Assembly: GCF_001856685.1 (NCBI RefSeq)
Contig: NZ_CP017812.1
Location: 62,001-126,000, forward strand
Source of the DNA: Boudabousia tangfeifanii
GTDB lineage: Bacteria > Actinomycetota > Actinomycetes > Actinomycetales > Actinomycetaceae
Reading direction: 5' to 3'
DNA length: 64,000 bases
Both the position numbers and the translations under genes were made by a program. Positions 1 through 64,000 of this stretch are shown here, in pieces (positions within the stretch are counted from its first letter, which is position 1; every line of letters starts with the position of its first letter). Below the pieces are notes generated by a model, which saw only the letters and a program-made list of their open reading frames with translations, searched no databases and was not told the origin of the DNA.

Positions 1-138
1 CTAGTGATGAACCCAGAAACTTTGGAAGATGAAGAAGACGATCCCGAGTTCCCCTTCGGCCCAGTAGTGACCGATGATGAGATTGAAGATGTTTTTGTTT
101 GGAGTGACAAGGTCAGTATTTACAGCTTCGACAACTAG
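1..138 (+). CDS. 3' end of unknown gene (5' part outside window)
   Basis: The reading frame is open from the first base of the window and ends at TAG 136-138. The visible 45 codons encode a very acidic tail (ETLEDEEDDPEF, then TDDEIEDVFVW) ending in SIYSFDN. There is no signal peptide or membrane segment in the visible part. An in-frame ATG lies at base 7, but no ribosome binding site can be judged, so the gene is treated as truncated by the window edge. I do not recognise the family and assign no function. The gene is convergent with the ABC exporter pair that follows. Confidence 0.5.
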   Translation, partial: LVMNPETLEDEEDDPEFPFGPVVTDDEIEDVFVWSDKVSIYSFDN

Positions 139-214
139 TTCCAGACTCTCCGGCAAAGCTACTTTTTAAGTGGGGTGCGGTTATTGTTGCTGCCCACCGT
201 TTCACAGCTGAGCG

Positions 215-325
215 TGCTGATTGGCTTTGCTGAGCGTTCTACCGGTTAGCCTGCTTACTGGCTTTGCCAAGCGTTCTACCGCTTTGTGTGCCTACTGGCT
301 TTGCCACGCGTTCCAAAGTTTGGCG
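215..325. repeat. Three imperfect 37-bp tandem repeats at the 3' end of the ABC gene
   Basis: Units start at 215, 252 and 289. Each contains a version of TTGGCTTTGC followed by GCGTTC. The third unit is the last 12 codons of the ABC gene (ending NAWQSQ-stop on the minus strand), so the other two look like tandem copies of the gene's 3' end lying just past its stop codon. The copies have drifted, so the duplication is not brand new. Confidence 0.75.
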
Positions 326-2025: not shown

Positions 2026-4091
2026 CGACCCACCTCCTCGTCGTAGTCATTTTCGCTGGGTTTATCGTTCACTTCGCTAGTGGCCTGCTCAATCACCCGG
2101 GCAAAAGCGGCTAGGGCTTGGTCGTTTACTTGGCCGGAGGCAAACTGGCTGGGGGTGCCGCCCCCGAGGGCGTGACCGTCCTCGGCCAGCACCAATACTT
2201 GGTCAACGGTATGAATCAGCAGGGGAGAGGCGGTGGCAATCACGGTGGTGCGCCCGGCACGATTTTGCGCCAAAGACTGCCCGATAGTCGCTTCCGTGTT
2301 GGCATCCTGGGCCGAGGTCGGGTGCGAAAGCAACAACACCGGAGAATCTGCAGCCACTGCGCGCGCCAAAGCTAAACGCTGACGCTGCCCGCCCGAAAGG
2401 TTACGACCCTTTTCCAAAATGCGGCCGTCCAAGCCACCCAAAGAAGTCAAGACGTCATTCGCGTTAGCCACCTCGATGGCCGCCAAAAGCTGGTCATCCC
2501 AGTCGGTCGGCTGGTGATCGGGCAGCAACAAGAACTCACTTTCGGGAGAGCGTTCGATGGCATCCCAGGCGAGCAATTCCGGCAAAGTCAAAGGCGGGTT
2601 CGCCACCGCCTTTCGCCCTAGCAGGGACTTGCGGAGCGAGCCGGCAAACACCCCGGCCTCACCGGAGCTGAAGAGCACCGCGTCGCGCACGCCCTCGATC
2701 GGCAAATCAGCTAGCTTCACCTGCTTGGCTCCGCACAGGTCGCCACCCTGAAGCTGCACTTCGGTGCCGTCCTCGAGACGAGCCAAACGCCGCACCAAAG
2801 CAGTCGAAACTTCCGGATTCTCACAAACCACCGCGGTAATCTGGCCGCCATGCAGTTTGGCGCCACTAGCCATGTCCTGGAAACTCACCGCATTCCAACT
2901 ACTTGGCGACTCCTTGGTGGCCTGGTCAGTCAAATTCGGCTCCACCACAGTCATCTGGCAAATTCGGGCCGCAGCCACCTGCGCTCCCGTAATCACCATG
3001 GCCGCGGTGACGATCGAGTTCACCGAAGACTGCAAATACGTGGACAGCCCGAAGAAAGCCAGCAGGGTGCCCGCGGTCAGCGAACCATTCCAGACCATGT
3101 AGGCACCCACGGCAATAATGGTGGTTTGGAACAAGGCCGGCATCCCGGCTCGCAAGGTGGCCATTAATGCGCGGAAGACCACCACTTTCATGCCTTTTTC
3201 GGTCAGGTCGCGCGAAGCCTCCTGATAGTGGGCGGTGTACTTATCTTCGCCGCCGATACCGCGCAGCACGCGCAAACCCATCACCGCATCGGTCGCCACC
3301 GTGTTTAGCTGGCCGAGGGCGCCACGGGCTTCGTCAGTGCGACGACGCAAGGGCTTAGCGGTAGATGAGACCAGCAAAGTGGCTGCGGGTAAACCCAAAA
3401 GCACTAGCAGACCCAATGGGATCGAGTAGGAGAGCATAATGGCGCCCGAAACCAACATGGTGATTAGCGAGGCGGTTAGCGCCGGAAGAAAGAGCAGAAG
3501 ATCGGCGATCGCACCCGAGTCAACCATAGTTGAAGCCACGAGGTTGCCGGACGAAACTTGTTTCGTCATCGGAATGGCGCGATCAATCGTGCGGCTAGTT
3601 AAGTTAAAGGACTGCCACCAAGACATACGCCAAGCCAGATTCATATTGGCAATCTGATCTAAAGCCCAAGCTAGGCCGATCACGAGCACGTTAATCACCA
3701 GCATCAGGAACCAGAAAGCGAAATTACTGTTAAAGCCTTCCGCAAGGCCATCATTAAGCATCTTGCCCAAGATTAATGGCACGCAAATGCCCGATAGGCG
3801 CATCAAAGTCGAAACAAATAGGGAAAACAAGTATGGCCACTTCTGCATTTTGATTTGTTTCCAAATCAAAGCGCGAGGAGTCTTCGGCAAATCGTAAATA
3901 TCTAGCGGAAGATCAAAACTCTGAGGCACGTTATGCGGAAAACGCATAGTTTTCGGAAGTGCCAGGTTCAGCTTGTCTAAGGCCTTGAGCCAAATAGAAT
4001 CTGCCGGCGCATACAGCTGGGCTCGGCCTGGACGCGAGGGATCAAAAGTTGGTTGGTCGGTTACGTAGGGTGGTTCAAACTTGTTTTTCAT
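2022..4091 (-). CDS. ABC exporter half-transporter with degenerate Walker A/B and intact signature
   Basis: This 689-residue protein begins with an unusual cytoplasmic stretch of about 80 residues, then an exporter membrane domain (about 85-380), then a nucleotide-binding domain. The signature LSGGQRQRLALARA near 565 is canonical. The Walker A region (CENPEVSTA, about 423-431) has lost the glycines and the lysine, Walker B reads VLLLSHP instead of LLLDEP near 585, and the H-loop position is IATAS with no histidine. This is not a pseudogene: the frame is intact, and its healthy signature complements the intact Walker motifs of the next gene. It is first in the pair, with AGGAGG about 13 bases before ATG. 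The pair diverges from metP across a 257-bp AT-rich gap. Confidence 0.87.
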   Translation of the reverse strand: MKNKFEPPYVTDQPTFDPSRPGRAQLYAPADSIWLKALDKLNLALPKTMRFPHNVPQSFDLPLDIYDLPKTPRALIWKQIKMQKWPYLFSLFVSTLMRLSGICVPLILGKMLNDGLAEGFNSNFAFWFLMLVINVLVIGLAWALDQIANMNLAWRMSWWQSFNLTSRTIDRAIPMTKQVSSGNLVASTMVDSGAIADLLLFLPALTASLITMLVSGAIMLSYSIPLGLLVLLGLPAATLLVSSTAKPLRRRTDEARGALGQLNTVATDAVMGLRVLRGIGGEDKYTAHYQEASRDLTEKGMKVVVFRALMATLRAGMPALFQTTIIAVGAYMVWNGSLTAGTLLAFFGLSTYLQSSVNSIVTAAMVITGAQVAAARICQMTVVEPNLTDQATKESPSSWNAVSFQDMASGAKLHGGQITAVVCENPEVSTALVRRLARLEDGTEVQLQGGDLCGAKQVKLADLPIEGVRDAVLFSSGEAGVFAGSLRKSLLGRKAVANPPLTLPELLAWDAIERSPESEFLLLPDHQPTDWDDQLLAAIEVANANDVLTSLGGLDGRILEKGRNLSGGQRQRLALARAVAADSPVLLLSHPTSAQDANTEATIGQSLAQNRAGRTTVIATASPLLIHTVDQVLVLAEDGHALGGGTPSQFASGQVNDQALAAFARVIEQATSEVNDKPSENDYDEEVGR

Positions 4092-4348: not shown

Positions 4349-6115
4349 ATGGATACTACTAAACAAACTACCGAGGCCTCCGCCTCGCGAGAAACCTGGT
4401 CCTCTCAGACTGGGTTCTTGCTCGCAGCGATTGGTTCGGCTATCGGCCTAGGCAATATTTGGCGTTTCCCTGGAATCGCCTACAAGAATGGTGGGGGTGC
4501 CTTCCTCATCCCTTACATCGTGGCACTATTTGCTGCCGGTGTCTCCTTCCTCTTGTTGGACTACGCCCTCGGCCACCGACTTCGTGGTGCGGCCCCAACC
4601 GTATTCCGCCGCATCCACCACCGGGCCGAAATCCTCGGCTGGTTTAAAGTAGCTATCTCCTTCATCATCACCTGCTACTACGCGGTGATTATTGCTTGGG
4701 CGCTACGCTACGCCATCTTCTCCCTAACCTTGGCGTGGGGTGACGATCCCGCCAGCTTCTTCATTAAAGACTTCCTCGGTGGGGGCAACCCATCGCCAGC
4801 CACCGAACTACACTTCAGTCCCGTCTGGGGTGTTTTTGCCCCGTTGCTCATTGTTTGGGTAGTGATCCTCGGGATCGTCGCCCTCGGCGTGCAGCGTGGT
4901 CTAGAAAAGGCCAATAAAGTCGTGATTCCCGCCCTCGTCGTCCTATTCGGCGCAGTGGTAATCCGCGCGGTGACGCTCCCGGGCGCCACCGACGGCTTGA
5001 ACGCCTTCTTCACCCCTAACTGGTCGGCACTATCCGACGGGGGCGTGTGGATTGCAGCCTTCTCGCAGATCTTCTACTCCCTATCCATTGGCTTCGGCAT
5101 CATGGTGACCTACGCTTCCTACTTGCCGCGCCGCACCAACCTCGGCGGCACCGCTTATGTGGCTGCTTTTGCCAACTCCTCCTTCGAAATCCTGGCCGGC
5201 ATTGGCGTGTTCTCCGCCCTCGGCTTCATGGCTTTCAAGCAGGGCGTGGCCATTGGTGACCTCCAAGGCATTACCGGGGTGAGCCTCTCCTTCATCTCCT
5301 TCCCAATGATTATTTCCAAGATGCCCGGTGGCGCCATTTTCGGCTTCCTCTTCTTCACCTCTTTGGTGTTGGCCGGCATGACCTCCCTCATGTCGCTAAT
5401 CCAGGTGGTTTCGGGTGCCTTCCAGGAAAAGTTCAACTGGCGTCCAGTGCGCGCCTCGATCACCATCGGTGTTCCGGCCGCCTTGGTTTCCCTCCTCTTG
5501 TTCTCCACCACCTCGGGCCTAAACACCCTTGACGTGGTAGACAAGTACACCAACGAAATCGGTGTGGTGCTCTGTGCGATCTCCACCGCCGTCCTCGTTA
5601 CCGTGATCCACCCACGCCTCAGCCGGCTCCGTCGCCACATCAACGTCCTTTCCAATGTTCACATTGGCAAGTGGTGGGATTTGATGGTTGGCTTCGTAGT
5701 TCCAGCAGCCCTCTTGTGGATGCTCATCCAAACTGCGGTAAGCTTAATTAAGGATGGCTACGACGCCTATCCTGGCTGGTACACCGCCTGGTTTGGTTGG
5801 GGCGCGATCGTATTCGCTTTGATCAGTGCATACATTCTCACCCTCACCACTTGGCGGCAAGACGTCGACGACTTCACGGTAATGCCATTGCCGTATCGTC
5901 CTCGTGACCGCTATGGACGGATTATCACTTCGGAGCCAAAACTGAAGTTGATTCCAACCGCCCAAAAGAGCGAGGGCGCTCCGGTCGGTGTTCGCGAAGA
6001 AGACGACGAATTTGAATATGGTGATCCGAACGCATACCTAGATAATCAGGTAGGTACCAACGTCGCTGATGGTACAAACACGGGCGTTCAATCGACGGCG
6101 AACGAACGACAATAA
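4349..6115 (+). CDS. metP: NSS-family Na+-dependent amino-acid importer, MetP type
   Basis: This 588-residue protein is a neurotransmitter:sodium symporter family carrier (LeuT fold) with about 12 membrane helices. The family signature in helix 1 is clear: GSAIGLGNIWRFPG, followed by NGGGAFLIPY. A small one-helix subunit (MetS) is encoded two genes downstream, the arrangement known from the Corynebacterium glutamicum MetPS methionine/alanine importer, so methionine or alanine uptake is the likely role. The cytoplasmic tail is acidic and ends with a DPNAYL segment that recurs in the next small protein. ATG 4349 is preferred over an upstream in-frame TTG because AAAGGGA precedes it. The gene starts a three-gene operon. 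Confidence 0.85.
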   Translation: MDTTKQTTEASASRETWSSQTGFLLAAIGSAIGLGNIWRFPGIAYKNGGGAFLIPYIVALFAAGVSFLLLDYALGHRLRGAAPTVFRRIHHRAEILGWFKVAISFIITCYYAVIIAWALRYAIFSLTLAWGDDPASFFIKDFLGGGNPSPATELHFSPVWGVFAPLLIVWVVILGIVALGVQRGLEKANKVVIPALVVLFGAVVIRAVTLPGATDGLNAFFTPNWSALSDGGVWIAAFSQIFYSLSIGFGIMVTYASYLPRRTNLGGTAYVAAFANSSFEILAGIGVFSALGFMAFKQGVAIGDLQGITGVSLSFISFPMIISKMPGGAIFGFLFFTSLVLAGMTSLMSLIQVVSGAFQEKFNWRPVRASITIGVPAALVSLLLFSTTSGLNTLDVVDKYTNEIGVVLCAISTAVLVTVIHPRLSRLRRHINVLSNVHIGKWWDLMVGFVVPAALLWMLIQTAVSLIKDGYDAYPGWYTAWFGWGAIVFALISAYILTLTTWRQDVDDFTVMPLPYRPRDRYGRIITSEPKLKLIPTAQKSEGAPVGVREEDDEFEYGDPNAYLDNQVGTNVADGTNTGVQSTANERQ

Positions 6116-8550: not shown

Positions 8551-8573
8551 CCGAGGGCGTTTCCCGCCCTCGG
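8551..8573. terminator. Hairpin made from an inverted pair of the dispersed repeat word
   Basis: CCGAGGGCG (8551-8559) and CGCCCTCGG (8565-8573) form a perfect 9-bp stem with a five-base loop between the convergent cysE and MATE genes. No T-run follows on either strand. The arms are the GCCGAGGGCG word found throughout the window. Confidence 0.7.
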
Positions 8574-8583
8574 CCCATGGGAA

Positions 8584-9918
8584 CTACTTGCGCAGCAGGT
8601 CCTTGGCGCCGTAGGTATTTGTCAGGCCGCGAATCCCCATGAATGCGCCACCGATGGCTAGCCACAGCCAGAAGCTGGCCCATGCTGGGCTCAGGGCGGA
8701 GCCGAAGTGGCCAACCAACCAAATAATCGGGGCGTAAACCAGTAAGTTTACGATGGAAGCGATGGCGAGGAAACGAGCTCGGTTCGCCCCAATCAAAACC
8801 CCATCGAGCAAGAAGACGTAGCCGGCCAGCGGCATGCAAGCGCCGATCGCTAGTAAACCTACGGTGGTGGCGAGGCGAACTTGCGGGTCGGTGGTGAAAA
8901 TCCAGGGGAAGAAATAGCTGCCCGCGAAGAAAATCACCAGAATAATGCCGCCCATACGCCAAGCCCAGGTGGCGCAACGACGGAGCACCAGTCGGACTCT
9001 CTCATCACTGCCGGTGCCCAGACCGTGGCCGATCAAGGCTTGCGAAGCTACCGCCAAAGAATCCAGCGCGTAGGTCCCGATGGTGTAAATCGAAGTGACC
9101 GCCTGGTAGGACGAAAGCGTAATTGCTCCAGCTTGAGCCGCCGCCCAAGTGGTCAAAATGATTGCGATTCTCAGGCTGACGGTGCGCGCCACTAGGGGAG
9201 CGCCGGCCTGCCCCACCAGTTTCAAAATCTTGGCCGAGGGCGCAAGGGAAACCCCGCGGGCTTTTGCGCGATGACCAATGATGCTCAAAAGCGCCAAGGC
9301 CATCAAAGTCTGGCTCAGGGAAGTGCCCGCACCCGAGCCGATAATGCCCCAGCCGAGCCCATAAATTAGCACCGCATTAGCCACGGCATTAAAGGCAGTA
9401 CCACTAATGGCTACAATCATTGGGGTGCGAGTATCAAGTAGACCGCGCATTGCCCCAGTTCCGGCTAGCACCAAAAACATGCCGAGGACGCCTGGGGTCG
9501 AAGCGTGAATATACTGCACGGCATATTGGGCGACCGCCTGATTCGGGTCAAACCAGCTAGTAAATAGGGGAGAGCCGAACCACAAGATCGGCATAATGAT
9601 CAGGCCGAGGGCGCCTGCCAACCACAGACCCCCGATTCCTGCAGAAATGGCTTCTTTGGGCTGACCTTCGCCAAGTTTGCGGCTGGCCAGAGCCGTGGTG
9701 GTGTAGGTCAGGAAGATGAAGAGGTAGACCGCGGTCATGACTACCGTCGATCCAAGTGCTAGACCCGCAAGTTGATCGGTACCTAAGTGACCGACCATGG
9801 CCGAATCGGCCATCACCATCAGCGGTTCAGCCAGCATGGCCGCAAAAGCTGGGGCAGTTAATTGCAGGATCTGGCGGTCAACATCGCGAGCGGATTTAGC
9901 GGGAGCGGGGTCAGTCAT
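8584..9918 (-). CDS. MATE-family multidrug/cation antiporter (DinF-like)
   Basis: This 444-residue protein has about 12 membrane helices in two similar halves, typical of the MATE family of Na+ or H+ coupled exporters. The N-terminus AFAAMLAEPLMVMADSAMVGHLG is characteristic of DinF-like members. ATG 9918 is chosen over an upstream in-frame TTG (9978). No binding site precedes the ATG, but TTAGACT lies about ten bases upstream, so a leaderless mRNA is possible. The substrate is unknown. The gene diverges from dnaB across the DnaA-box cluster. Confidence 0.88.
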   Translation of the reverse strand: MTDPAPAKSARDVDRQILQLTAPAFAAMLAEPLMVMADSAMVGHLGTDQLAGLALGSTVVMTAVYLFIFLTYTTTALASRKLGEGQPKEAISAGIGGLWLAGALGLIIMPILWFGSPLFTSWFDPNQAVAQYAVQYIHASTPGVLGMFLVLAGTGAMRGLLDTRTPMIVAISGTAFNAVANAVLIYGLGWGIIGSGAGTSLSQTLMALALLSIIGHRAKARGVSLAPSAKILKLVGQAGAPLVARTVSLRIAIILTTWAAAQAGAITLSSYQAVTSIYTIGTYALDSLAVASQALIGHGLGTGSDERVRLVLRRCATWAWRMGGIILVIFFAGSYFFPWIFTTDPQVRLATTVGLLAIGACMPLAGYVFLLDGVLIGANRARFLAIASIVNLLVYAPIIWLVGHFGSALSPAWASFWLWLAIGGAFMGIRGLTNTYGAKDLLRK

Positions 9919-19591: not shown

Positions 19592-19604
19592 GGCGTTGAA
19601 AGGC

Positions 19605-19658: not shown

Positions 19659-21443
19659 ATGAAAAACAAATTTGTACACGCGGGCCTAGGAGCATTCAGT
19701 GCTGCCGCCCTGCTGGGTGGAGCCTTGGTTCCCGCTGCAGCCATCGCAGCCCCTGGCGATTACGACGACTCGGTTAATGCTGTTAACCCAGAAGCCCTCA
19801 GCGTTATCGACGACGCTAAGGACGGTCAGGCATCGCTAACCATCCACAAGTACGAGCAGCCTGAAACCCCAACCGGTCTACCAAACGACGGTATGCCACT
19901 AAAGGCTGACGCCCTCTCGGCTCTAACCGCACTTGAAGGCATCAAGTTCAAGATCCAGCGCGTATCTGACATTGACCTCAAGACCCAGGCCGGCTGGGAA
20001 CGTGCAGCCGCCCTCGGCAAGCAGGCCAAGAGCGAAGGCGCTGAAGCTGTAGCCAAGACCCTTTCCTTCGACGAAGCTAAGGAAGGCTTGACCGCCGCTG
20101 ACGGCTCCCTCTCCTTCTCCTCCCTTCCATTCGGTTTGTACTACGTCACCGAAGATTTGGCTGGTTCCACCAACCCTAAGGCAGCTCAGGTAACCCCAGC
20201 CGCCCCATTCTTCTTGACCGTACCGTTGACCAACACCCAGCAGCTCAACAACTGGGTATACGACGTACACACCTACCCGAAGAACTCTTTCTCCGAAGCT
20301 GAAAAGTCCGTTCAGGACGATGGCGCCCCAGCAGTTGGTGACACCCTCACCTACACCGTTAAGGGCAACATTCCTAAGCTCGGCACCTACGAAGTCGAAG
20401 TTGATGGCGAAAAGGTAACCAAGGACTACACCCTTGCTAACTACCAGATCGTTGATCCTTTGGACGCACGCCTCGGCTACGTTGAAGACTCCGTCAAGGT
20501 CACCTTGGAAGGCGCCGAAGGCGTTAACCTAGAAAAGGGCACCGATTGGGAAGTTGGTGTCTACAAGCCAGAAGATGGCAAGACCTACGTCACCGTAGAA
20601 TTCACCGAAGCTGGTCGCGCTAAGCTCGTTGCCGCCCGCAACGCCGGCACCGCAGCCACCAAGGTAGTTGTCAAGCTTGACGCCGTAGTTAACTCCCTCG
20701 GCGCTGACGGCAACATCCCGAACACCGCTGTTTTGATCCCGAACCAGCCAAGCAACCCTTGGGACAAGGATCGTGGCCCAGGCCAGCCAGGCACCCCACC
20801 TCCAGGCATCCCAACCAACACCGTAGTTTCTAAGTACGGCCGCGTGGAAATCAACAAGGTTGACTCCAACGACGACACCAAGAAGCTACAGGGTGCAGAA
20901 TTCCAGGTGAAGCGTTGTAAGGTCGCCAATGACGCCATTGACGCCATGAACGTCAGCCCAGAAACCGCCTTCCGTCTCGACACCCCAGTCGAAGCAATGG
21001 AAGAATCCGCTCTCGAAGTTGGCAAGAAGGGTGCAGACCGCAAGTCCACCTTCGTCACCGCCGAAAACGGTAAGGTTCTCATCGACGGCTTGCAGCACAA
21101 CGACTGGCGCAACGACTCGAAGGAAACTGAAGGTCAGATCGACCTTAAGGATCCAGCATCGTACGGCGACTACAACGCCTACTGCTTGATCGAAACCAAG
21201 GCTCCAGAAGGCTACGAACTTCTGGCCAAGCCAATCCCATTCTTGGTCACCGATCGCACCATGAACGGCACCGAGAATGCCACCTTGCCGGTCACCATCA
21301 AGAACGTCAAGACCAACAACGGCTTCAACCTACCAGTAACCGGTGGTGAAGGCATCGCCCTTCTCGTCACCGCTGGTGGCTTGCTAGTTGCTGGTGGCGC
21401 ACTGGTTGCACTTCGCAATCGTCGCAACAAGGCAGAAGCCTGA
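19659..21443 (+). CDS. Major pilin subunit, LPXTG-anchored (FimA/FimP/SpaH type)
   Basis: This 594-residue protein is the shaft subunit of a sortase-assembled pilus. It has a signal peptide ending near PAAAIAA, the pilin motif WVYDVHTYPKNS with its crosslinking lysine near residue 207, the E-box CLIETKAPEGYELLAKP near 507, and the sorting signal LPVTGGEG near 557 with a hydrophobic helix and RNRRNK tail. The pilin motif closely resembles that of Actinomyces fimbriae. The lysine is joined by the class C sortase to the LPVTG threonine of the next subunit. ATG 19659 has GGAGA at proper spacing; the upstream ATG 19647 lacks a site. Strong codon bias suggests high expression. Confidence 0.95.
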   Translation: MKNKFVHAGLGAFSAAALLGGALVPAAAIAAPGDYDDSVNAVNPEALSVIDDAKDGQASLTIHKYEQPETPTGLPNDGMPLKADALSALTALEGIKFKIQRVSDIDLKTQAGWERAAALGKQAKSEGAEAVAKTLSFDEAKEGLTAADGSLSFSSLPFGLYYVTEDLAGSTNPKAAQVTPAAPFFLTVPLTNTQQLNNWVYDVHTYPKNSFSEAEKSVQDDGAPAVGDTLTYTVKGNIPKLGTYEVEVDGEKVTKDYTLANYQIVDPLDARLGYVEDSVKVTLEGAEGVNLEKGTDWEVGVYKPEDGKTYVTVEFTEAGRAKLVAARNAGTAATKVVVKLDAVVNSLGADGNIPNTAVLIPNQPSNPWDKDRGPGQPGTPPPGIPTNTVVSKYGRVEINKVDSNDDTKKLQGAEFQVKRCKVANDAIDAMNVSPETAFRLDTPVEAMEESALEVGKKGADRKSTFVTAENGKVLIDGLQHNDWRNDSKETEGQIDLKDPASYGDYNAYCLIETKAPEGYELLAKPIPFLVTDRTMNGTENATLPVTIKNVKTNNGFNLPVTGGEGIALLVTAGGLLVAGGALVALRNRRNKAEA

Positions 21444-39455: not shown

Positions 39456-39759
39456 AGTTCCTGTGACCCCCGACTCGGTAGTGTGTTGTGAGTTATTTTA
39501 ACAAAATGGGGGGGTGAGGAAAATGCTTTGAATTTGGGGTGCGTTAAGGCAAGGTTGGCGCGCCGTGTGGGGCGTGCGCCGGTGCAGGCGTGCATTAGGC
39601 CTGGAACAGGATTTTGGCAGTATGGCTTGTCTCCGGCGGGTGCGTCCTGCCTCCGTCTTCCAGCCTCGCCCTGGGCGTGGGACTGGACCGTATCGGTATG
39701 GCTTGTGGTCGCTAGTGTGCTCTGCCCCCGGCTCCCGGCCTCGCCCTCGGCCTTTGAGC
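39456..39759. other. Intergenic region with a 76-bp imperfect tandem duplication
   Basis: No gene is seen in these 304 GC-rich bases. Two related stretches begin with TATGGCTTGT at 39621 and 39697 and end in GCCTCGCCCT(G/C)GGC-like sequence. The second ends in the CGCCCTCGGC word (39742-39751). The region separates a divergent-looking upstream edge (permease start) from the glycosyltransferase 3' end. Confidence 0.55.
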
Positions 39760-44356: not shown

Positions 44357-45292
44357 TTACCCCGGCTCGAAATCGATGCCGTCTGGGAGCTTGCGCAGCG
44401 ATTTGAAACTGGTACCGCCCTCGGCTAGCAGCACGGGGAAGACACGGACGCTGATTTTGGTGCTGGTGGGCACGTAGCGCATCCAGTGCAGGAAGTTGAG
44501 CCGGGCGGCGGCATCCTCGTCCCAAGACCTGGCGACCCGAGCCAGATCGTCACTCAAATCTCCGCCACCTTCTGCGGTTTGTTGCTGGATCCGACGGGCT
44601 CGGCGAGTAATCATCCGGAAATACTGCTCAAATGCACTAGCGAAAGCCAGCTGCTGCTTGTTATCGGTACAAAAAACGAGGGCGAAACCCAGGCGATCCG
44701 CCTCCAAAAATGCGTCCCGCAACTGCTGGCCCCGCGCAGCCACCTGCGGATCTTTCAACGTGTTTGCCACACAGACCGCGTGGAAAGTAGACGAGAACTT
44801 TTGCAGAATATTCGCCCGCTCCAAATGCTTCGCGTTCGGGTGCACATTCGGGCGCCCTTCCAGCTCCACCGACGAGTAGTTTTTCAACTCGCACAGCCAA
44901 AGGGCCCGCTCGCTTGCCACCTGCTCGCTCGGGCCCTTGCCGCCCTCGGCTTGCTGGGGGCGTAGCGCCACCACGTCGACCCGTTTGTGATGCAAGCGCG
45001 CCCCCAAAGGGTCGTTGCCCTGCAAGTGCGGATTCGCTGCCTCCAAGTGCAGGCGACGCACCAGGTCAGGCGGGGAACCGGCGCGAGCATGCTTTTCTCG
45101 CAAAGTGCTGGCAGTGTCGAAGCCCAACTGCAGGTCCTTCGCGCCAATGCGCTGCCCAGTCGCCTTATCCAGCGGGGAACCATCGAATTCCATCAGCGCC
45201 CACGAGCGGTTATAGGTGATGCGGAACCGGTCCATCACCACCGTCTGCTTCTCGTGGGGAAGCTCCCACCCGTTGCCTTGCTCGCCCATCAT
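44357..45292 (-). CDS. Predicted PD-(D/E)XK nuclease-like partner of the ATPase
   Basis: This 311-residue protein has RVDVVAL (Asp 106) and LWLCELKNY (Glu 135, Lys 137). The D-X28-ExK spacing and the hydrophobic strand around ELK suit a PD-(D/E)XK nuclease core. The remaining parts are not recognised. The ATG at 45292 lies one base after the ATPase stop, so the genes are translationally coupled. A longer in-frame extension overlaps the ATPase and is only a shadow. Similar ATPase-nuclease pairs occur in phage defence (Septu, Gabija, PARIS), but this pair matches none that I can name. Confidence 0.65.
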   Translation of the reverse strand: MMGEQGNGWELPHEKQTVVMDRFRITYNRSWALMEFDGSPLDKATGQRIGAKDLQLGFDTASTLREKHARAGSPPDLVRRLHLEAANPHLQGNDPLGARLHHKRVDVVALRPQQAEGGKGPSEQVASERALWLCELKNYSSVELEGRPNVHPNAKHLERANILQKFSSTFHAVCVANTLKDPQVAARGQQLRDAFLEADRLGFALVFCTDNKQQLAFASAFEQYFRMITRRARRIQQQTAEGGGDLSDDLARVARSWDEDAAARLNFLHWMRYVPTSTKISVRVFPVLLAEGGTSFKSLRKLPDGIDFEPG

Positions 45293-45293
45293 G

Positions 45294-46418
45294 TCACCGC
45301 AAATAGCGCGAAGCCTGCTCCAACTCGGCATCCAGCGAAGCGATCGACTCGAGGTCGTCCAAAGTGTCGAAAGCCGCCAGCTCGACGCCAGAATCCCCGC
45401 CCTCGGCCAGCGACCTTTCCAAGGAAACATAGCGGATCGGCACCCGAGATTGGGACGAAAGCAAATCCAGTTCCCGCAACACAAACAGCGAATGCGTGGA
45501 GACGAAAAGTTGCGTGCCGCCCTCGGCCAGGAAGAACAGAGCGCGGCACAGGGCCTGCAGGGCTGACGGGTTCAAGTTCGCCTCCGGTTCATCCCAAAAC
45601 AGGCACGAGCCCGGGCCCACGGCCCCATTCAGAATCAGTTGCGCCAGCGAGGCCAGTTTGCGCATCCCCTCCGCCACCAGCGGCATCTCCGTCTGACCGG
45701 TCGGGGTCGACAAGAAAAACTCGCCAGTTTCGCCTTGGGTCACCCGACCACCCAGCACACCTTCCAGCTCTGTCAAGGCTTTGTCAGCCGAGGACGAGGG
45801 CGAGGGCGGGTTAGCCAATGCGCGCGCACTCAAAGCTTTTGCCGCGTCAGTCCAAGTCTGCGGAAACGGCAACGGCACCTGCTTTAGAGCGTCCAAGAAA
45901 CCAGGCAGGAAAGAGATCACCTCTTGCGAAGGCAAATACACCGGGGAAGTAGCCGGCGAGAAGGGCGGGACTGAGGTTACCGATAATGGGGGAGTCTGTG
46001 GTGTGGCTGGAATGGTGAATGCCAAGCTTTGAAAGTCTCGGGCGGCGGCTAGAGGTGCCTTTTGGTTGCTATCGCCGGTGGTGGTGTGTGGCGCTTCTGG
46101 CGTGAAATCAAGCTGGATCTGAGCAGAGTCGGTACCCTCATGGCGACTGACCAAGCGGGACAGTTCCCCACCCGTGGGGCGACAAACCGACACTAGTTTC
46201 TGCGCTAGACAGTCAGCCAGTTGTTCTGGCTGCAGGTCGGGGCAAGACAAGGCGGTTGCTGAGGCGTACAGAAGTTTTAAGAACAGTGATTTGCCCATCG
46301 CGTTATTGCCAACCAACACGTTTAGGGCGGGGGAGAAGCAAGCCGTGGTTTCGCCGAATGGGCCGTAGTTTGCCAGGGTGATTTGAGCCAGTTTTGATTT
46401 AGTTTGATCGGTTCCCAT
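45294..46418 (-). CDS. OLD/AAA_15-type ATPase of a two-gene module
   Basis: This 374-residue protein begins with the ABC/SMC-like ATPase start LAQITLANYGPFG, and Walker A is GNNAMGKS (37-44). Near the C-terminus Walker B is CLFWDEPEANLNP (272-284) and FVSTHS (His 309) is the switch histidine. There is no TOPRIM domain or coiled-coil arm, so it is smaller than OLD nucleases. The start ATG 46418 has AGGAG at proper spacing. It is followed by a coupled nuclease-like gene. The role is probably sensing or activating the partner, as in ATPase-effector defence modules; this is inference. Confidence 0.75.
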   Translation of the reverse strand: MGTDQTKSKLAQITLANYGPFGETTACFSPALNVLVGNNAMGKSLFLKLLYASATALSCPDLQPEQLADCLAQKLVSVCRPTGGELSRLVSRHEGTDSAQIQLDFTPEAPHTTTGDSNQKAPLAAARDFQSLAFTIPATPQTPPLSVTSVPPFSPATSPVYLPSQEVISFLPGFLDALKQVPLPFPQTWTDAAKALSARALANPPSPSSSADKALTELEGVLGGRVTQGETGEFFLSTPTGQTEMPLVAEGMRKLASLAQLILNGAVGPGSCLFWDEPEANLNPSALQALCRALFFLAEGGTQLFVSTHSLFVLRELDLLSSQSRVPIRYVSLERSLAEGGDSGVELAAFDTLDDLESIASLDAELEQASRYLR

Positions 46419-49512: not shown

Positions 49513-49561
49513 CTGGCCGAGGACGCCCGGTGGGTGGAACCGGGGTGGCGTCCTCGGCCAG
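49513..49561 (-). terminator. Terminator built from paired copies of the repeat word
   Basis: A 15-bp stem, CTGGCCGAGGACGCC (49513-49527) with 49547-49561, encloses a 19-base loop that has its own small stem. It lies just after the stop of the 670-residue SLH protein gene. The arms contain the 10-bp word in inverted orientation. Confidence 0.85.
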
Positions 49562-53754: not shown

Positions 53755-53788
53755 CGTTCAGAAAACTACCTGAAAGTATCGTTTAGTA

Positions 53789-57722: not shown

Positions 57723-59168
57723 ATGGAAATCTACTGTAAGGGGGCTGTGATTTTGTCGCCAAGTAAGTCCCTATCTTTATCCAGTAGAGAGCTTATTAAG
57801 TTTGCTCAACAGTATTTGTCATCACATCCAAATCCAGAGCTAGGCTCTCCTCAAATGGCGGTCACTAATTGGATCGAATCACAGCTTCTACCTTTCTACC
57901 AGGCAGGCGAAAAAACTCTCGATGAAGCCGTTGCGCAAAAAATCATTGCGGTATTTATTGAACTTGCGGTAGGAAATTCTCGAAATATTGATCTCTCCCA
58001 AGAGCCCACAATTGCAGAGAATATTACCAACTTTGATATTCTTTACTTCCTTTTCTTCGTGCATCAAGTACCACTAGAAGCCCTAAACGCCGCCTTTTAC
58101 TCTGGTCGAACATTTGCCCAAGAACTTGCGGCCTTGCCAGAGGTTCGACGCTATCTGGCGAGCGGGCACTTAACAGCTCAAGGTTTGCATGATGCTGGTG
58201 TTGCTCTGAGCGTGCTTCTCATGCGCGCCACGAATAACCAGAATTATTTGGCGGATTTACCCACCCCAATTGCTCAATTACTTGACTTGATGCAAACACG
58301 GCTCGAACAACACGTACAAGATTCCCTGTGGTTAGCGCTTTCTGGTTCCTTTGAACTCGAAACCTTGGACCAGATGGTGCCAGTTGTGCAGCTTTGGCCA
58401 GCTAGTCGAGTAGACCTTTCATTGGTACTTACCTTTATTTGTCGACAAGCAATGTTCTTTGCCTGCCGTTACCAATTCGACACCAGCAGAGAGTTTTTGA
58501 GTTTTGCCCAGAATTTAAATCGTTTAGCAAAATCTTCTGAAAAACTATTGCAGGAAAATCCGGCGTATCAAGTTTGTGAAGCTATTTCTGAATTCGCCTC
58601 TCGAGACGAGGTCGCACCTAACTTTCCTGAGTGGGGAGAAAAGTTTATTCCTACCCCTTTAAAGCCAATTAAAACTCAGAATTTTTCTGCTCTCGCGGAT
58701 GCCATCAAACAACTAGCTGTGGGAAGTAAAGGAGTTTTTAAATCTCCCGCCGCTAAGGTAGTACTCTGGCTAGGTGAAATGGCAGAGTGCTTTGAAAAAC
58801 CTGGAAATCGCTCTTCGGCTTTCGGGATTGATCTACGATTAGCACAACTACATCTGTTAATGCGCATGAATCGTTATAATCACGCAGCACGAATAACCTT
58901 ATTCATTCAACGACTTTGCGCTAATCAGCCAGATGCAACATGGTATTTAGAACGTGCTCTTCCAGCGATTCTTACTATGAATAGTTGGGCACATAATGTT
59001 GGTGGGGAAAACTTCATTGACACCGGAGTTATGTTTCAGTTTAAACAGAACCTGAACAAACAGCAGTTTAGGGAATTAAACGAAGCGTTAGCGTCCTCGG
59101 CAAGTGAACCACCGCTTAACATTAATTTAGAACTTAGCGACCGACAGCTGGTAGGTGAGTGGTCATGA
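57723..59168 (+). CDS. Unknown helical protein coupled to a glycerophosphotransferase gene
   Basis: This 481-residue protein has no signal peptide and no clear membrane helix. It looks mostly alpha-helical, with Leu-rich segments such as FDILYFLFFVHQVPLEALNAA. I do not recognise it. Its stop overlaps the start of a large wall-polymer transferase (ATGA), and the gene upstream diverges into an Asp2-like hydrolase. The context suggests a cytoplasmic helper in glycopolymer or glycoprotein assembly. ATG 57723 is preferred since GGAG precedes it by seven bases; the frame opens at 57627. Confidence 0.65.
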   Translation: MEIYCKGAVILSPSKSLSLSSRELIKFAQQYLSSHPNPELGSPQMAVTNWIESQLLPFYQAGEKTLDEAVAQKIIAVFIELAVGNSRNIDLSQEPTIAENITNFDILYFLFFVHQVPLEALNAAFYSGRTFAQELAALPEVRRYLASGHLTAQGLHDAGVALSVLLMRATNNQNYLADLPTPIAQLLDLMQTRLEQHVQDSLWLALSGSFELETLDQMVPVVQLWPASRVDLSLVLTFICRQAMFFACRYQFDTSREFLSFAQNLNRLAKSSEKLLQENPAYQVCEAISEFASRDEVAPNFPEWGEKFIPTPLKPIKTQNFSALADAIKQLAVGSKGVFKSPAAKVVLWLGEMAECFEKPGNRSSAFGIDLRLAQLHLLMRMNRYNHAARITLFIQRLCANQPDATWYLERALPAILTMNSWAHNVGGENFIDTGVMFQFKQNLNKQQFRELNEALASSASEPPLNINLELSDRQLVGEWS

Positions 59169-61822
59169 GTTCAAACCATTACTTATTTTCGGTTCTGATC
59201 GCTACCTACAATGTTTCAGATTACATAAAGGCGTTCCTTAAAAGCCTTGAATGGCAATCTATCGCCCCATCTAAAGTCCAATATATTTTTGTCGACGATT
59301 GCTCCCCAGATGATTCTGGCGAGATTGCCCGAAAATGGTGCGAAAAACATGATAATGCAGTCTATGTGAAATCGTCGCAAAACGCTGGCCCCGCCAACGC
59401 TAGAAATCTTGGTTTGGAAGTGGCCACCGGTAAATGGATCACCGCCGCGGATCCTGATGACATTCTTGACCGAGACTACTTCGCAAATGTGGAGAGGATT
59501 CTTCATCAGGCGGACAACCTTGATGATATTGCCATGGTGTCGACACGAGTGCTGGTGTTGAATGACGAAACTGGGGTATTTAAAGACAACCATCCATTAG
59601 GATTCAAGTTCCGCAATGGTGATCGCCTAGTTTCGCTCGTTGAAGATCCCTATGCGATCCAGCTTGGAGCCACCGCTTTTATGCGCCGAGACCGGATTGA
59701 AGAACTCGGCTTGCGTTATCGCACTGACATTAAACCCACTTTCGAGGACGCACACCTGCTTTCACTTTACCTTTTGTCATTTGATGAACCGGTAATGGCT
59801 TTAGCGTCCTCGGCCCTTTACTACTACCGTAAGCGATCAAATAATTCGTCGCTGGTGCAGTCAGGTTGGGCAAGGCGAGAAAAATACACGACCCTGTTTG
59901 AAAACGGCTATTTAGACTTAACCAAGCATGCCCTGGAGCAAAAAGACAAGCTTCCTGATTGGGTGATTGCCCTTCTACTCTACGAACTTGTTTGGTATTT
60001 CCAAGAAGAAATGGCTATGCGTTCCAAAACAGCCTGGGTCAGCGAAGATCCTGAACTTAAGGCACGCTTTTTGAATAACGTTGCCCAGATTTTTGCGCTG
60101 ATTCCACCGAAAAAACTTCTGGAGTTTAAGATTCAGAATGTTCGTTGGGTGGTTCGTGAATCTCTGTTTATGTACTACTACGGGGAACGTTTTGGGGGTG
60201 CCCGGTTATACGAGTGGGGTGCTTCGAAAACTGCGAGAAGCTATACCTTGATGATGAAGGATTTCGACTGTAACGAGTTGGCGTTCTTCGTTGATGGAAG
60301 GCAAGTCCATCCGGAGATGAGTGTCTGTTCTCGGTACTTCTTTGGGGAGCGTTTTGCTTTTGAAGTAAGCTTCGACTTGCCGCTTGGCGAGACCGCCATT
60401 TTCTATCGAGGACGAATGGTGTCCAAATTGCAGGTTACAGTTCGCAAACCCGTGAGAGTCCTCAGCGAAAAACACTTCCTCCAAGGTCAAGCAGCACTTT
60501 CCCAAGGTCGTCGCGATCTAGACGTAAAGAAGAAAATCCGCCGGGAAGTTAAATCTTTAACTACTCGAACTTCAATGAGCCAACTGGCATGGCAACGTGC
60601 TCGTGCACAAATGGCGCTAAAGCTCAAACCTTCAAAAATTGATGATCACGAAGGCTTAATTCGGAACCGTGTTCGGGCCTTAGCTGCTTCTGAAAAATTT
60701 CAAGAAAAGTATGCTGGCTGCTGGTTGGTTATGGATCGGCCCATGTCCGCTTCTGATAATGGTGAGCATCTATACAGGTATTTGTTGAACGAGCGTCCAG
60801 ACATCAACGCCTACTTTATTTTGGACCCAACAGCTGCAGCATGGCCGAGGCTGGCAGCAGAAGGCTTTAAACTGTTGGCGTTTGGTAGTGATGAGGCCAT
60901 GGCCGCATTCTTGGTAGCTAAAGCGATGCTGTCATCCGACGCGATTGAAGCTTGCATGTATCCAGCTCCACGAAGAATTTTCAAGCATTCAGTGCCCTTC
61001 TTCTTTTTACAACACGGCATCACCGGTAATGATATTTCCCGCTGGCTTAACGATAAGCGTTTTTCTGGTTTCATCTGTGGAGCTAAAGCTGAATACGACT
61101 ATCTGTCCTCGGTCGATAGCCCGTTTACTTTCAAGAACGATGTACTGGTCAATCTGGGATTTGCCCGTTTTGATGCGCTACCTGATGCAACTGGACATGA
61201 CTTGAGCAGCAAACCATTGCTAATAATGCCCACCTGGCGAGGTAATCTAACTGACGAGCTTAAACAGATTACTGACCCTAGTCTTCGGCGAACATACTTT
61301 ACTAACACCGAGTTTTATCGTAAGTGGCACGAGCTATTGTCTTCTCCCAAGCTCCGCACGATTACTCATAATAAGGCAGGCGGCATTATCTTCGTGCTGC
61401 ATCCAAACCTGGCACAGTTCAAGGATATACTTTCCCTACCCGAGGGTACAGTGATAGCTGACCTGAGTAAGGATGACTTCCAAGAGATCTTATTAAATTC
61501 GTGCGCACTATTAACTGACTACTCGTCTACTGCTTTTGACGCCGCATATACGGGACGAGCTATTTTCTATTACCGTTTTGATGAAGACACGATTTTTAGT
61601 GGAGAAAATAATTTCCGCCGAGGATGGTACGAACCAGAAGAAAATGGTCTTGGTCCAGTTGCTTTGAATCCAAATCAAATGCTCGATTTGTTAGATAAAT
61701 GCGCCAACCGCCGTTGGCAGCCAGATTTACGTTATCGCAAGCGTCGTCGCCGCTTCTTTGGGCAGATTGATAACCATAATTCTCAACGAATCGTCGAATT
61801 CGTGGAAAAACAGTTGCCATAA
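59165..61822 (+). CDS. Fused family 2 glycosyltransferase / glycerophosphotransferase
   Basis: This 885-residue enzyme joins two wall-polymer activities. The N-terminus (about 1-230) is a GT2 domain: SVLIATYNVSDYIKAFL, then FVDDCSPDDSG, NAGPANARNLGL and TAADPDDILD as the DXD region. The C-terminal part (about 510-880) is a TagB/TagF-like glycerophosphotransferase: FFFLQHGITGND, MPTWRGNL, FVLHPNLAQF and the hallmark LLTDYSSTAFDAA near 783. This suggests a poly(glycerol-phosphate)-type or phosphate-linked polymer. Such fused enzymes are known in teichoic-acid and capsule clusters. It overlaps the unknown gene by four bases. ATG 59165 is chosen over GTG 59159. Confidence 0.88.
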   Translation: MSSNHYLFSVLIATYNVSDYIKAFLKSLEWQSIAPSKVQYIFVDDCSPDDSGEIARKWCEKHDNAVYVKSSQNAGPANARNLGLEVATGKWITAADPDDILDRDYFANVERILHQADNLDDIAMVSTRVLVLNDETGVFKDNHPLGFKFRNGDRLVSLVEDPYAIQLGATAFMRRDRIEELGLRYRTDIKPTFEDAHLLSLYLLSFDEPVMALASSALYYYRKRSNNSSLVQSGWARREKYTTLFENGYLDLTKHALEQKDKLPDWVIALLLYELVWYFQEEMAMRSKTAWVSEDPELKARFLNNVAQIFALIPPKKLLEFKIQNVRWVVRESLFMYYYGERFGGARLYEWGASKTARSYTLMMKDFDCNELAFFVDGRQVHPEMSVCSRYFFGERFAFEVSFDLPLGETAIFYRGRMVSKLQVTVRKPVRVLSEKHFLQGQAALSQGRRDLDVKKKIRREVKSLTTRTSMSQLAWQRARAQMALKLKPSKIDDHEGLIRNRVRALAASEKFQEKYAGCWLVMDRPMSASDNGEHLYRYLLNERPDINAYFILDPTAAAWPRLAAEGFKLLAFGSDEAMAAFLVAKAMLSSDAIEACMYPAPRRIFKHSVPFFFLQHGITGNDISRWLNDKRFSGFICGAKAEYDYLSSVDSPFTFKNDVLVNLGFARFDALPDATGHDLSSKPLLIMPTWRGNLTDELKQITDPSLRRTYFTNTEFYRKWHELLSSPKLRTITHNKAGGIIFVLHPNLAQFKDILSLPEGTVIADLSKDDFQEILLNSCALLTDYSSTAFDAAYTGRAIFYYRFDEDTIFSGENNFRRGWYEPEENGLGPVALNPNQMLDLLDKCANRRWQPDLRYRKRRRRFFGQIDNHNSQRIVEFVEKQLP

Positions 61823-61859: not shown

Positions 61860-61897
61860 GCTCTTCTGCTCCAATGAAACTATCAGATCAGAAGAGC
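61860..61897. terminator. Terminator between convergent genes
   Basis: GCTCTTCTG (61860-61868) pairs with CAGAAGAGC (61889-61897). A T-rich stretch follows on the plus strand at 61905. Confidence 0.65.
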
Positions 61898-61910
61898 CAA
61901 TAAGTTGATT

Positions 61911-64000
61911 TTAGGACTCGTTCAGGGGAGAGCGGCGAATGCGACTACGGCTAGGAAGATTTAATCTTCTAGATGCAGTAGTTTCTACCTCACTTAGTTC
62001 ACCTGAGGTTGCTTTTTCTGCCTGCTCTGCGCTTGCTGCTTTTAGATCTTCGCTCACATTACTCGGAGTGAAAGCTTCTGATTCCGATCGTTCTGTTTGA
62101 GTCGGAATCATCGAGGAAGACAACCGTTGGGATGAAGTAACTTCGGTCGACTTTGCCTCGGAAGCTGACTCGGTATTATCCTGATTCGTCTGCTGGACTC
62201 TAGCGTCCTCGGAGCGTGTTATTTGTTTGCTAGGAAGCGCTTGTGGAGTCCCGCCAACATTAGTTGCTGTTGGCTGGGGTGCTAACGGACGGGGACCAAC
62301 CGGACGAGGCATACCGAGGCGAGGGGCACCCATACGCGGATCTGCGGGATTCATACCTGGGCGAGGACGAGGCATGCGCGGATCTGCTGGATTCATGCCC
62401 GGGCGAGGACGAGGCAATGGTGATCCATCAGGACCTACTGGTGGACGTGGTCCTCTTGGTGGCATAGGTGGCCGAGCCCCATTTCCTTGCTGTGGTCCGG
62501 ACATTGGACGAGGCGCATTGCCTGGTCGTGGGCCAGAAGCTGGGCGTGGTCCCATTCCTCCTTGAGGTGGCATTGGCCGGCCTTGTGGACGAGGACCATT
62601 AGCCGGACGAGGACCATTAGCCGGACGAGGACCCATGTGCGGTTCTCTGGGGCCATCTGGACGATTTGGTGCGCCCTGTGGACGTGGCATTGGCCGGCCG
62701 GGTTGGCCGTAAGTAGGCTGGCCTGGGCGCGGTTGAGGTTGGCCTTGCGGTCTTGGTCCCCTAGGTGGAACTGATGGAGCCGTCCCAGTTGGTGGCATTG
62801 TGTGTCGAGAGCCAGCTGGTGGCACTGGGGGACGAGGAGCTGTCGGGGGTTTAGGCAAACTAGTCTGGGCTAGACTTTCGTGCGAGTCGTGCGGCTTCGT
62901 AACTAAACCGCTAGGCTGCTGATCTGGAGTAGATTCTCCAGTGGATTCGAGGAGTGTTTCCTTGGACTTCGCTAATCCAAGACTCGAGTCCGTTGAACTG
63001 TCTGTCGATGAGGACGAATCTGTCTTATTTTCCGGCTTTGGCGAGCGACGCACTGGCGGTGCCGGTGGGGCTGGAATGAATGGTCGATTTGGAGCTTGGG
63101 AGAGCAATGGTTCGCGCTTGGATTCTTTAGGCTCGTCAGTAACTTCGCCCTCGGCCAGTTTAGCCAGTTGTTCTTCTGCAGATATTTTCTTAACTGTCGC
63201 CTCAGTTTTGCTCGGCTGTGCTGGTGAAGTAGTCTCGGGAATAGTTTCTGCGACTACGGCTTGTTGGCTAGGTTCCTCACCCTTTTCAACTTCGGTTGTT
63301 TTAACTTCGCTCGAAACTTCCGTAGCAAGTACTTCAGTGTCTAATGACTTGACATCTGTCGGAGTGTTTTCGTCCAGATTCTTGTTTAGATCTGCCTTAT
63401 CGTCAGCTAGATCTTCTTGTTGTGCTTCATCCTGCTTTTGCTCTAATACAGGAGTCTTTGAGGTAACTTGCTGCTCAACTTCTTCTGCAGCAATCTCAGG
63501 CTTCTCAGTTGTTGGTTTGGGGGCAAGCGTAATGATCTCATCAAATTCTGCGTCTGCGCGTTTGATGGCATCTTCACTAAGTGAATCTGCACTGCCGATG
63601 GTCCCTAGAGGAGTCGTTTTCGCGAAAGTGTTTTCTTGTCGACGTCCCTGACGGCGTGAGCGCTTGGGAATGTAGAAATCTGGTTCCTCTTCTTCAACGA
63701 TTTCTTTTTGTTTGGGTTCGTTGGAAGTGGGCAGTAAGGGCAGCAACTCGTATTTATCTTCCTGTCCTTCTTCTTTGTAGACGAGAAGACGAGTTAAGCT
63801 AGCGGTTTGCCGCGCTAGGTCAGCGTTGACGCCGATAACGTGCACATCGTAGATTCCAGAATCTAGGATGCTTAGATCTACGCCTTTACTGTGCATGTCG
63901 CAGTAGTAGGATTTAACCGCCGAGGTCGGAATGTTGGTGCCTTTGGTCAGTTCTTTAGTTCGATCCAGCATGCCTACGCGAGTAGCAATGGTTTCAGTAC
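61911..64000 (-). CDS. Proline/arginine-rich disordered protein, cut by the window edge
   Basis: The frame is open to the end of the window, so the true start may lie outside; the first internal ATG is at 63971. From that ATG the protein has 686 residues. A small folded part (about 1-70; ELTKGTNIPTSAVKSYYCD, then GIYDVHVIGVNADLARQ) is followed by an acidic, Glu/Thr-rich region and then a long Pro/Gly/Arg-rich stretch (about 390-570) with repeats such as RPRPGMNPADPRM and GPRPANGPRPANG. There is no signal peptide or membrane helix. The tail is basic (RRLNLPSRSRIRRSP). I do not recognise the family. Confidence 0.65.
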   Translation of the reverse strand, partial: TETIATRVGMLDRTKELTKGTNIPTSAVKSYYCDMHSKGVDLSILDSGIYDVHVIGVNADLARQTASLTRLLVYKEEGQEDKYELLPLLPTSNEPKQKEIVEEEEPDFYIPKRSRRQGRRQENTFAKTTPLGTIGSADSLSEDAIKRADAEFDEIITLAPKPTTEKPEIAAEEVEQQVTSKTPVLEQKQDEAQQEDLADDKADLNKNLDENTPTDVKSLDTEVLATEVSSEVKTTEVEKGEEPSQQAVVAETIPETTSPAQPSKTEATVKKISAEEQLAKLAEGEVTDEPKESKREPLLSQAPNRPFIPAPPAPPVRRSPKPENKTDSSSSTDSSTDSSLGLAKSKETLLESTGESTPDQQPSGLVTKPHDSHESLAQTSLPKPPTAPRPPVPPAGSRHTMPPTGTAPSVPPRGPRPQGQPQPRPGQPTYGQPGRPMPRPQGAPNRPDGPREPHMGPRPANGPRPANGPRPQGRPMPPQGGMGPRPASGPRPGNAPRPMSGPQQGNGARPPMPPRGPRPPVGPDGSPLPRPRPGMNPADPRMPRPRPGMNPADPRMGAPRLGMPRPVGPRPLAPQPTATNVGGTPQALPSKQITRSEDARVQQTNQDNTESASEAKSTEVTSSQRLSSSMIPTQTERSESEAFTPSNVSEDLKAASAEQAEKATSGELSEVETTASRRLNLPSRSRIRRSPLNES

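Follow-up and report, generated by a model that had tools for sequence, protein, structure and literature searches.

A genome-wide DNA word in Boudabousia tangfeifanii and its relatives as a candidate self-recognition signal for DNA uptake

In the passages cited here, uptake words belong to the Neisseriaceae and the Pasteurellaceae, both of them Gram-negative. Genomes with a DNA uptake sequence (DUS) or an uptake signal sequence (USS) harbour thousands of copies, and the DUS is described as varying in dialects between genera around an invariant core and as forming inverted pairs at terminators (passages in PMC3630211). Local scarcity of the DUS serves as a sign of genomic islands (passages in PMC7371117), and the USS of Pasteurellaceae comes as two 9-base types that differ in a few bases (passages in PMC12616744). 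Here we describe a word of comparable behavior in an actinobacterium: GCCGAGGRCG (R being A or G), with the strict core CGAGGNCG, which is dispersed through a 64,000-nucleotide stretch of the Boudabousia tangfeifanii chromosome (hereafter the window) and through the rest of that genome, and which may serve as a self-recognition word of the DNA-uptake kind.

The window comprises positions 62001-126000 of the B. tangfeifanii genome (G000), a single contig of 2,207,832 bases. Most tests on this genome used a 464-kb sample made up of the window and 20 evenly spaced 20-kb stretches, relatives were sampled at 20-140 kb each, and genes were called with a simple in-house open reading frame scorer that overlooked some genes, comEC and tadA for example. 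The window holds 34 copies of GCCGAGGRCG, against a mean of 0.32 and a maximum of 2 in 100 dinucleotide-preserving shuffles. An earlier sequence-only reading of the window had reported a dispersed ten-base word resembling an uptake sequence; all 32 of its coordinates are correct, and it overlooked two sites, at 25735 (A variant) and 26233 (G variant). Across the whole genome the pattern occurs 633 times (313 forward, 320 reverse), compared with 14 for the same pattern read backwards.

The ten-base word is real, and its strict part is only CGAGGNCG. Positions 3-7, 9, and 10 are close to all-or-none: in the 464-kb sample GCCGAGGNCG has 246 copies and each substituted form between 1 and 20. The leading GC is a preference outside the strict part. 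The restriction of the eighth base to A or G in the earlier description did not hold, as all four bases occur there freely (A 68, C 45, G 81, T 52). A soft extension, TGCTGGC, precedes the core on its 5' side to give a full form of approximately TGCTGGCCGAGGNCG; the bases immediately 3' of the core are unconserved, and beyond about 7 bases 5' of it the flanks are almost free of information. Genome-wide there are 3,299 copies of the core, one per 670 bp, against 469 of a reversed control, and their distribution is clustered rather than even (coefficient of variation of the gaps 1.34; variance/mean 1.8 in 2-kb bins, prophage stretches included).

The enrichment resides in the DNA rather than in what the DNA encodes. 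When synonymous codons were shuffled within each gene of the sample (40 shuffles), CGAGGNCG was expected 60 times in the sense and 71 times in the antisense direction, whereas 328 and 329 copies were observed, an excess of about 5-fold, and one reversed and two permuted control words gave observed/shuffled ratios of 0.9-1.2. The core was raised in each of the six frames (2.4- to 7-fold), in agreement with the earlier statement that the word is read in several frames and on both strands, and non-coding DNA contained 76 copies where a Markov-3 model predicted 6.7. Codon and dinucleotide composition likewise fail to account for the ten-mer, of which there were 121 genic copies against about 9 in the shuffles. 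In a ranking of all 16,384 gapped words of the form XXXXXNXX, CGAGGNCG came first in B. tangfeifanii (657 observed, 132 expected, z score 45), and the runner-up (z 18) overlaps its reverse complement. A wider ranking over 43 word shapes in 16 genomes, with 4 shuffles and one third of the B. tangfeifanii genes, still placed it first in this genome and in its relative G008.

Host specificity within the sample was apparent from the ratio of observed to codon-shuffled counts, which was computed for 21 stretches before their annotation was examined. The lowest values belonged to L104 (1.27; 1,725-1,745 kb) and L090 (2.05; 255-275 kb), followed by L095, an unannotated stretch (2.89). L104 carries capsid, portal, and terminase genes, and L090 carries, after a host purL-like gene, two recombinases together with amidase, tail, tape-measure, and capsid genes. 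Pooled phage genes, with the boundary in L090 fixed at base 3600 after annotation, contained 16 copies against a codon-shuffle expectation of 14.5 (ratio 1.1), and host genes contained 641 against 116 (ratio 5.5); the host ratio would have given 80 copies in the phage genes. The ten-mer is absent from both strands of the 52.7 kb around one prophage (257,748-310,438), where 15 copies were expected. GC content cannot explain this lack because it is higher in the phage (0.563) than in the host (0.523), and the prophage ratio of 1.1 suggests that the null model is sound. The two prophages, L104 and the part of L090 from about 3.7 kb on, were themselves found through their unenriched word; L104 also encodes a ParB-like/DNA methyltransferase protein and has a gene matching S-adenosylmethionine synthetase.

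Relatives possess the same word or a close variant of it. The gapped-word ranking was applied to 34 genomes of the family, sampled at 20-464 kb, and to 7 genomes of other families in the order. Actinobacterial DnaB hits, sortase-type pilins, and the range of genome sizes indicate that the family is probably Actinomycetaceae. CGAGGNCG ranked first in 8 of the 34 (G000, G002, G003, G008, G029, G057, G080, and G071; in G029 with 93 copies against 8 expected), and CGACGNCG, which differs from it by one base, in 14. Neither word was first in the remaining 12, three of which (G001, G014, and G054) gave z scores of 4.0-5.3 for CGAGGNCG, nor was either first in any of the 7 genomes from other families, where CGACGNCG reached z scores of 5.1 in G091 and 6.1 in G109. 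The CGACGNCG signal is firm in G039, G034, and G026, with ratios of 3.5-5.4 and with enrichment in several frames and in non-coding DNA, and it is weak in high-GC genomes: a survey of 78 named actinobacterial loci (the best 80 of 594 less two shorter than 6 kb; three of them Actinomyces) gave a median z score of 2.0 and a maximum of 6.0, the latter in a Rhodococcoides locus. A one-base dialect between genera is likely, short of proof. G039, G034, and other genomes show a rise of CGNCGNCG as a whole, and in the wider search CGNCGNCG or ACGACGNC often scored as high as CGACGNCG or higher within the group of genomes led by that word; the same search placed CGAGGNNG first and CGAGGNCG next in G003, placed GAGGGCG first in G014, and left CGAGGNCG out of the 12 words listed for G002. 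On a ComEC tree of 29 rows, with long branches and 13 of 26 inner branches well supported, the word labels are clustered without forming single clades; label G requires 4 changes and label C requires 6, values as low as these arising in 5 and 13 of 500 shuffles, respectively.

Other repeated words were encountered in the same samples. The first 100 kb of contig C1 of G008 (L124-L128) hold the overlapping words GGATGACCCCCG (73 copies) and CCGCGTGGGCGG (37), which indicate a long repeat or array, possibly CRISPR-like. The 100-kb sample of G001 (L109-L113) contains AACAATTGTGCA (9 copies), CGACTGTGCACC (11), and GGACGAGGG, the last with 23 copies against 1.3 expected and perhaps a variant of the word.

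Competence genes are widespread in the family. All 101 family genomes surveyed have a ComEA match, and all 55 surveyed for the other two genes have ComEC and a match to DprA, which in G031 is a weak fragment only. B. tangfeifanii has, besides these three, a Tad-type locus at 186.9-191.5 kb that comprises a T2SSE-type ATPase, a T2SSF match below the cut-off, DUF4244, a match to TadE, and small pilin-like proteins. Among genomes from elsewhere in the order, 15 of 34 have a PilT above the curated cut-off; among 55 from the family, none has. Passages in PMC4322843 report that transformation of Micrococcus luteus needs its tad genes.

Between genes, close pairs of the word tend to face each other. 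Among 17 intergenic pairs no more than 25 bp apart in the B. tangfeifanii sample, 12 are convergent, 5 direct, and none divergent; of the convergent pairs, 5 have 3' ends on both sides, 3 have 5' ends on both sides, and 4 adjoin a single 3' end. In the window such pairs (8551-8574, 24779-24805, and 49516-49558) adjoin 3' gene ends, and the inverted pairs in hairpins mentioned in the earlier reading are confirmed.

Set beside the DUS of Neisseriaceae, as far as the cited passages describe it, the word is alike in its thousands of copies in genes and in gaps, its intergenic inverted pairs, its likely dialects between genera, and its local scarcity in acquired DNA. It is unlike the DUS in belonging to an actinobacterial family without PilT above the curated cut-off, in the free base inside the word, in the depletion of near-misses, and in the replication-oriented behavior of one variant. 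With the USS of Pasteurellaceae it shares a short core and types that lie a few bases apart. The flanks of the USS are AT-rich, whereas here a soft TGCTGGC extension lies 5' of the core, and phylum and machinery also differ. The earlier comparison with uptake words is supported in part: density, the symmetry of the word taken as a whole, presence in genes and gaps, inverted pairs, the lack of enrichment in prophages, and related words in sister genera agree with it, and the depletion of single mismatches and the one oriented variant sit poorly with it.

Direct observation covers the word and its DNA-level nature, the symmetry of its strands overall, its specificity for host DNA within the sample, its occurrence in relatives, and the accompanying competence genes. 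We judge it somewhat better than an even bet that CGAGGNCG serves throughout the genome as a self-recognition word of the uptake type. We infer that uptake is the driving force and that the word is recognized by a DNA-binding protein at the surface, the choice of protein being equally a matter of inference. In this model, cells would favor free DNA bearing the word, either in taking it up or in keeping it, the route being a Tad/Flp-type competence pilus followed by ComEA and ComEC, and the incoming DNA would recombine with the chromosome. Over evolutionary time such biased transfer would cause copies to accumulate in resident DNA, on both strands and in genes and gaps alike, recently arrived phages would stay without this accumulation, and related genera would carry this word or a one-base variant of it. 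A fuller version is that Actinomycetota have a self-word for uptake by a Tad-type pilus in place of a type IVa pilus, with one-base dialects between genera, and that one variant in this species has also become oriented by replication and so marks both self and strand; we hold it at somewhat less than even odds.

Several results weigh against uptake as the explanation. Single-mismatch neighbors of the core are depleted in B. tangfeifanii (1416 against 1788 expected, ratio 0.79) and in G008 (402 against 445, ratio 0.90); in four CGACGNCG genomes the ratio is 1.09-1.39, chiefly owing to the third base. For the Haemophilus and gonococcal uptake words, passages in PMC1939737 describe, against a null of base composition, an over-representation that falls with mismatch number, and also cite an earlier comment on the unexpected scarcity of single mismatches beside perfect copies. 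No receptor for the word was identified, in a survey that did not extend to ComP. Competence genes do not tell word-bearing from word-free members, because ComEA, ComEC, and DprA are equally universal in the latter, and we know of no transformation in this family. The lack of enrichment in prophages fits any slow build-up in resident DNA, by uptake or otherwise, and the smaller samples of G008, G001, and G002 contained no intergenic convergent pairs.

The last such result concerns replication. We take the left end of the contig to lie near the origin because a dnaA-like gene opens it, and leading and lagging strands were assigned with the terminus placed half way along. The strand-bias comparison suggested by the sequence-only reading gave an even result for the whole core (366 of 734 sample sites on the leading strand) and an uneven one for the ten-mer (57 of 149). 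Full sites GCCGAGGNCG divide by the free base, with leading/lagging counts of 38/7 for C, 17/64 for G, 40/28 for A, and 33/19 for T, and a hand count of the A and G ten-mers over 0-478 kb pointed in the same direction more mildly (leading A 50 and G 35, lagging A 37 and G 63). The extremes were CCGAGGGCGG, at 1 leading to 50 lagging, and CCGAGG(C/T)CGT, at 25 to 2, most other variants being near even. The complement of the former, CCGCCCTCGG, chosen post hoc as the most extreme variant, occurs 81 times forward and 90 times in reverse genome-wide, and about 150 of these 171 sites (about 88%) are leading, given a terminus half way along and with 19 reverse sites taken as the lowest of the 90. 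Outside the discovery sample the figure is about 100 of 120, and within it the preference is seen alike at sites in the sense direction (23), in the antisense direction (15), and between genes (12). Such an orientation is not a prediction of plain uptake; a second reader of this variant, or an avoidance of the variant facing the replication fork, is possible.

Overall, in most of the respects compared the word behaves as a DUS or USS does, and we do not class it as one because the excess of single mismatches was not seen and because uptake is a matter of interpretation.

The principal competing explanation is that CGAGGNCG is the binding site of a protein that organizes or maintains the chromosome, selected to be dense on both strands and behaving like HIP1 (highly iterated palindrome 1) of cyanobacteria; we think it unlikely, if far from negligible. 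It would account for a word that is dense in all sequence contexts, for a strict core around a free base, as in a protein site, and for the depletion of near-misses, and the replication-oriented variant hints at contact with chromosome processes. HIP1 (GCGATCGC) provides the precedent of a very abundant word whose function is unsettled, being described as debated in passages of PMC4390886, which also report that two orphan methyltransferases recognize its internal sequences; HIP1 is palindromic, whereas CGAGGNCG is not. Against this explanation, there is no candidate protein, the sites are clustered rather than evenly spaced, and inverted pairs and genus dialects are traits that the cited passages report for uptake words (PMC3630211).

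A recombination or translocation signal, either Chi for a RecBCD/AdnAB-type enzyme or an FtsK-orienting polar sequence (KOPS), is improbable. Chi and KOPS are, like this word, short and over-represented, being read by DNA motors, and the leading-strand preference of CCGCCCTCGG, which persists outside the discovery sample, and the strand dependence of the free base would suit them. The whole word is unbiased, however, and RecC (PF04257) was not found in G000, G001-G003, G008, G014, G029, or G054, all of them word-bearing genomes in which AddAB and AdnAB were not searched for. CCGCCCTCGG drops rather than climbs toward the terminus (in the sample and without codon correction), and its polarity is missing in G008, where 27 pairs lie on the same strand and 32 on opposite strands. 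An apparent gradient of the word from origin to terminus (19, 16, and 11 per 10 kb) vanished on codon correction (rho 0.15, p 0.51). The Chi and KOPS alternatives of the sequence-only reading are accordingly disfavored for the whole word, by its strand symmetry and, for Chi, by the RecC result as well, and it is the CCGCCCTCGG variant that is oriented.

A different polar word, GGGGGAG, is the better KOPS candidate. In the B. tangfeifanii sample it stands 71 leading to 4, and TGGGGGAG stands 41 to 1; in relatives GGGGGAG mostly keeps to the same strand within a 20-kb stretch (G002 38/0, G028 35/0, G092 38/0), with a polarity that is weaker or absent in G001, G003, G006, and G080. It shows no terminus gradient and is best described as a candidate KOPS-like word.

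A side effect of codon or codon-pair preference, or of biased mutation or repair, is a very improbable source of the word. Its commonest genic frames are indeed xxC GAG GNC G or the complement, and many genomes of the order have hundreds of GCCGAGGRCG, an abundance that synonymous shuffles account for in the high-GC relatives G005 and G052 (in G040, CGAGGNCG itself numbers 190 against 163 expected), so that we do not regard those counts as the same phenomenon. In B. tangfeifanii, enrichment in six frames, on both strands, and in non-coding DNA, permuted words close to 1, and prophage genes at background despite their higher GC content rule out such an artifact at the sensitivity of these tests. 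Least probable of all is a short dispersed mobile repeat of the repetitive extragenic palindromic type, for which hairpins from convergent pairs and one small tandem array around the word (L093, about 1399-1494, between called genes, with a period of about 29 bases) could be cited, and which is ruled out by the unconserved flanks and by the mainly genic location of CCGAGGNCG in the sample (377 genic copies, 53 intergenic).

The sites in the window are collected in Table 1. Two gene clusters there differ in their content of the core word. The first (12350-24748) is a sortase-type pilus cluster encoding a 2413-aa SpaA/DUF5979 protein, a Gram-positive pilin, and a 1040-aa protein with a sortase domain; its first two genes have 3 core words in 9 kb (codon-shuffle expectation 1.3), and the sortase-domain gene has 9 in 3.1 kb (expectation 1.2). 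The second (49568-55738) consists of three genes, two with internalin-like leucine-rich-repeat matches, and has 1 core word in about 6 kb, the codon-shuffle expectation also being very low at 0.3.

Table 1. Copies of the core word and of the ten-base pattern in the window
Feature	Positions	Strand	Remark
Core CGAGGNCG	1..64000	both	117 copies; the 34 ten-mers are a subset
GCCGAGGACG	2177..2186	-	pattern count
GCCGAGGGCG	3312..3321	+	pattern count
GCCGAGGGCG	4564..4573	-	pattern count
GCCGAGGGCG	4879..4888	-	pattern count
GCCGAGGGCG	5215..5224	-	pattern count
Convergent pair CCGAGGGCG/GCCGAGGGCG	8551..8574	8551 (+) / 8565 (-)	between two 3' gene ends
GCCGAGGGCG	9233..9242	+	pattern count
GCCGAGGACG	9481..9490	+	pattern count
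GCCGAGGGCG	9604..9613	+	pattern count
GCCGAGGGCG	20009..20018	-	pattern count
GCCGAGGGCG	23763..23772	-	pattern count
Convergent pair of GCCGAGGACG	24779..24805	24779 (+) / 24796 (-)	perfect hairpin, between two converging genes
GCCGAGGACG	25735..25744	+	new relative to earlier list
GCCGAGGGCG	26233..26242	-	new relative to earlier list
GCCGAGGACG	27084..27093	+	pattern count
GCCGAGGGCG	29190..29199	-	pattern count
GCCGAGGACG	30271..30280	-	pattern count
GCCGAGGACG	33561..33570	+	pattern count
GCCGAGGACG	34022..34031	+	pattern count
GCCGAGGACG	36856..36865	+	pattern count
GCCGAGGGCG	37818..37827	+	pattern count
GCCGAGGGCG	39742..39751	-	pattern count
GCCGAGGGCG	41374..41383	+	pattern count
GCCGAGGGCG	44416..44425	-	pattern count
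GCCGAGGGCG	44941..44950	-	pattern count
GCCGAGGGCG	45398..45407	-	pattern count
GCCGAGGGCG	45518..45527	-	pattern count
GCCGAGGACG	45787..45796	+	pattern count
Convergent pair of GCCGAGGACG	49516..49558	49516 (+) / 49549 (-)	23-base gap; downstream of minus-strand gene 49568-51580
GCCGAGGACG	59092..59101	-	pattern count
GCCGAGGACG	59805..59814	-	pattern count
GCCGAGGGCG	63146..63155	-	pattern count

Among the papers listed in searches of the open-licence PubMed Central literature, none reports a word of this kind from Actinomycetota, and those listed as containing one of its letter strings deal with other subjects. If CGAGGNCG is indeed an uptake word, it would represent a further origin of such words, in a Gram-positive family without a recognized type IVa pilus retraction ATPase, and would imply that DNA uptake selective for self has arisen more than once and by way of different pili. 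The word would then be a tool for spotting recently acquired DNA in these genomes, and many members of the family may be naturally transformable. Should it have some other role, a strict word of eight bases present once per 670 bp would point to an abundant and so far unrecognized DNA-reading process in this group of bacteria.

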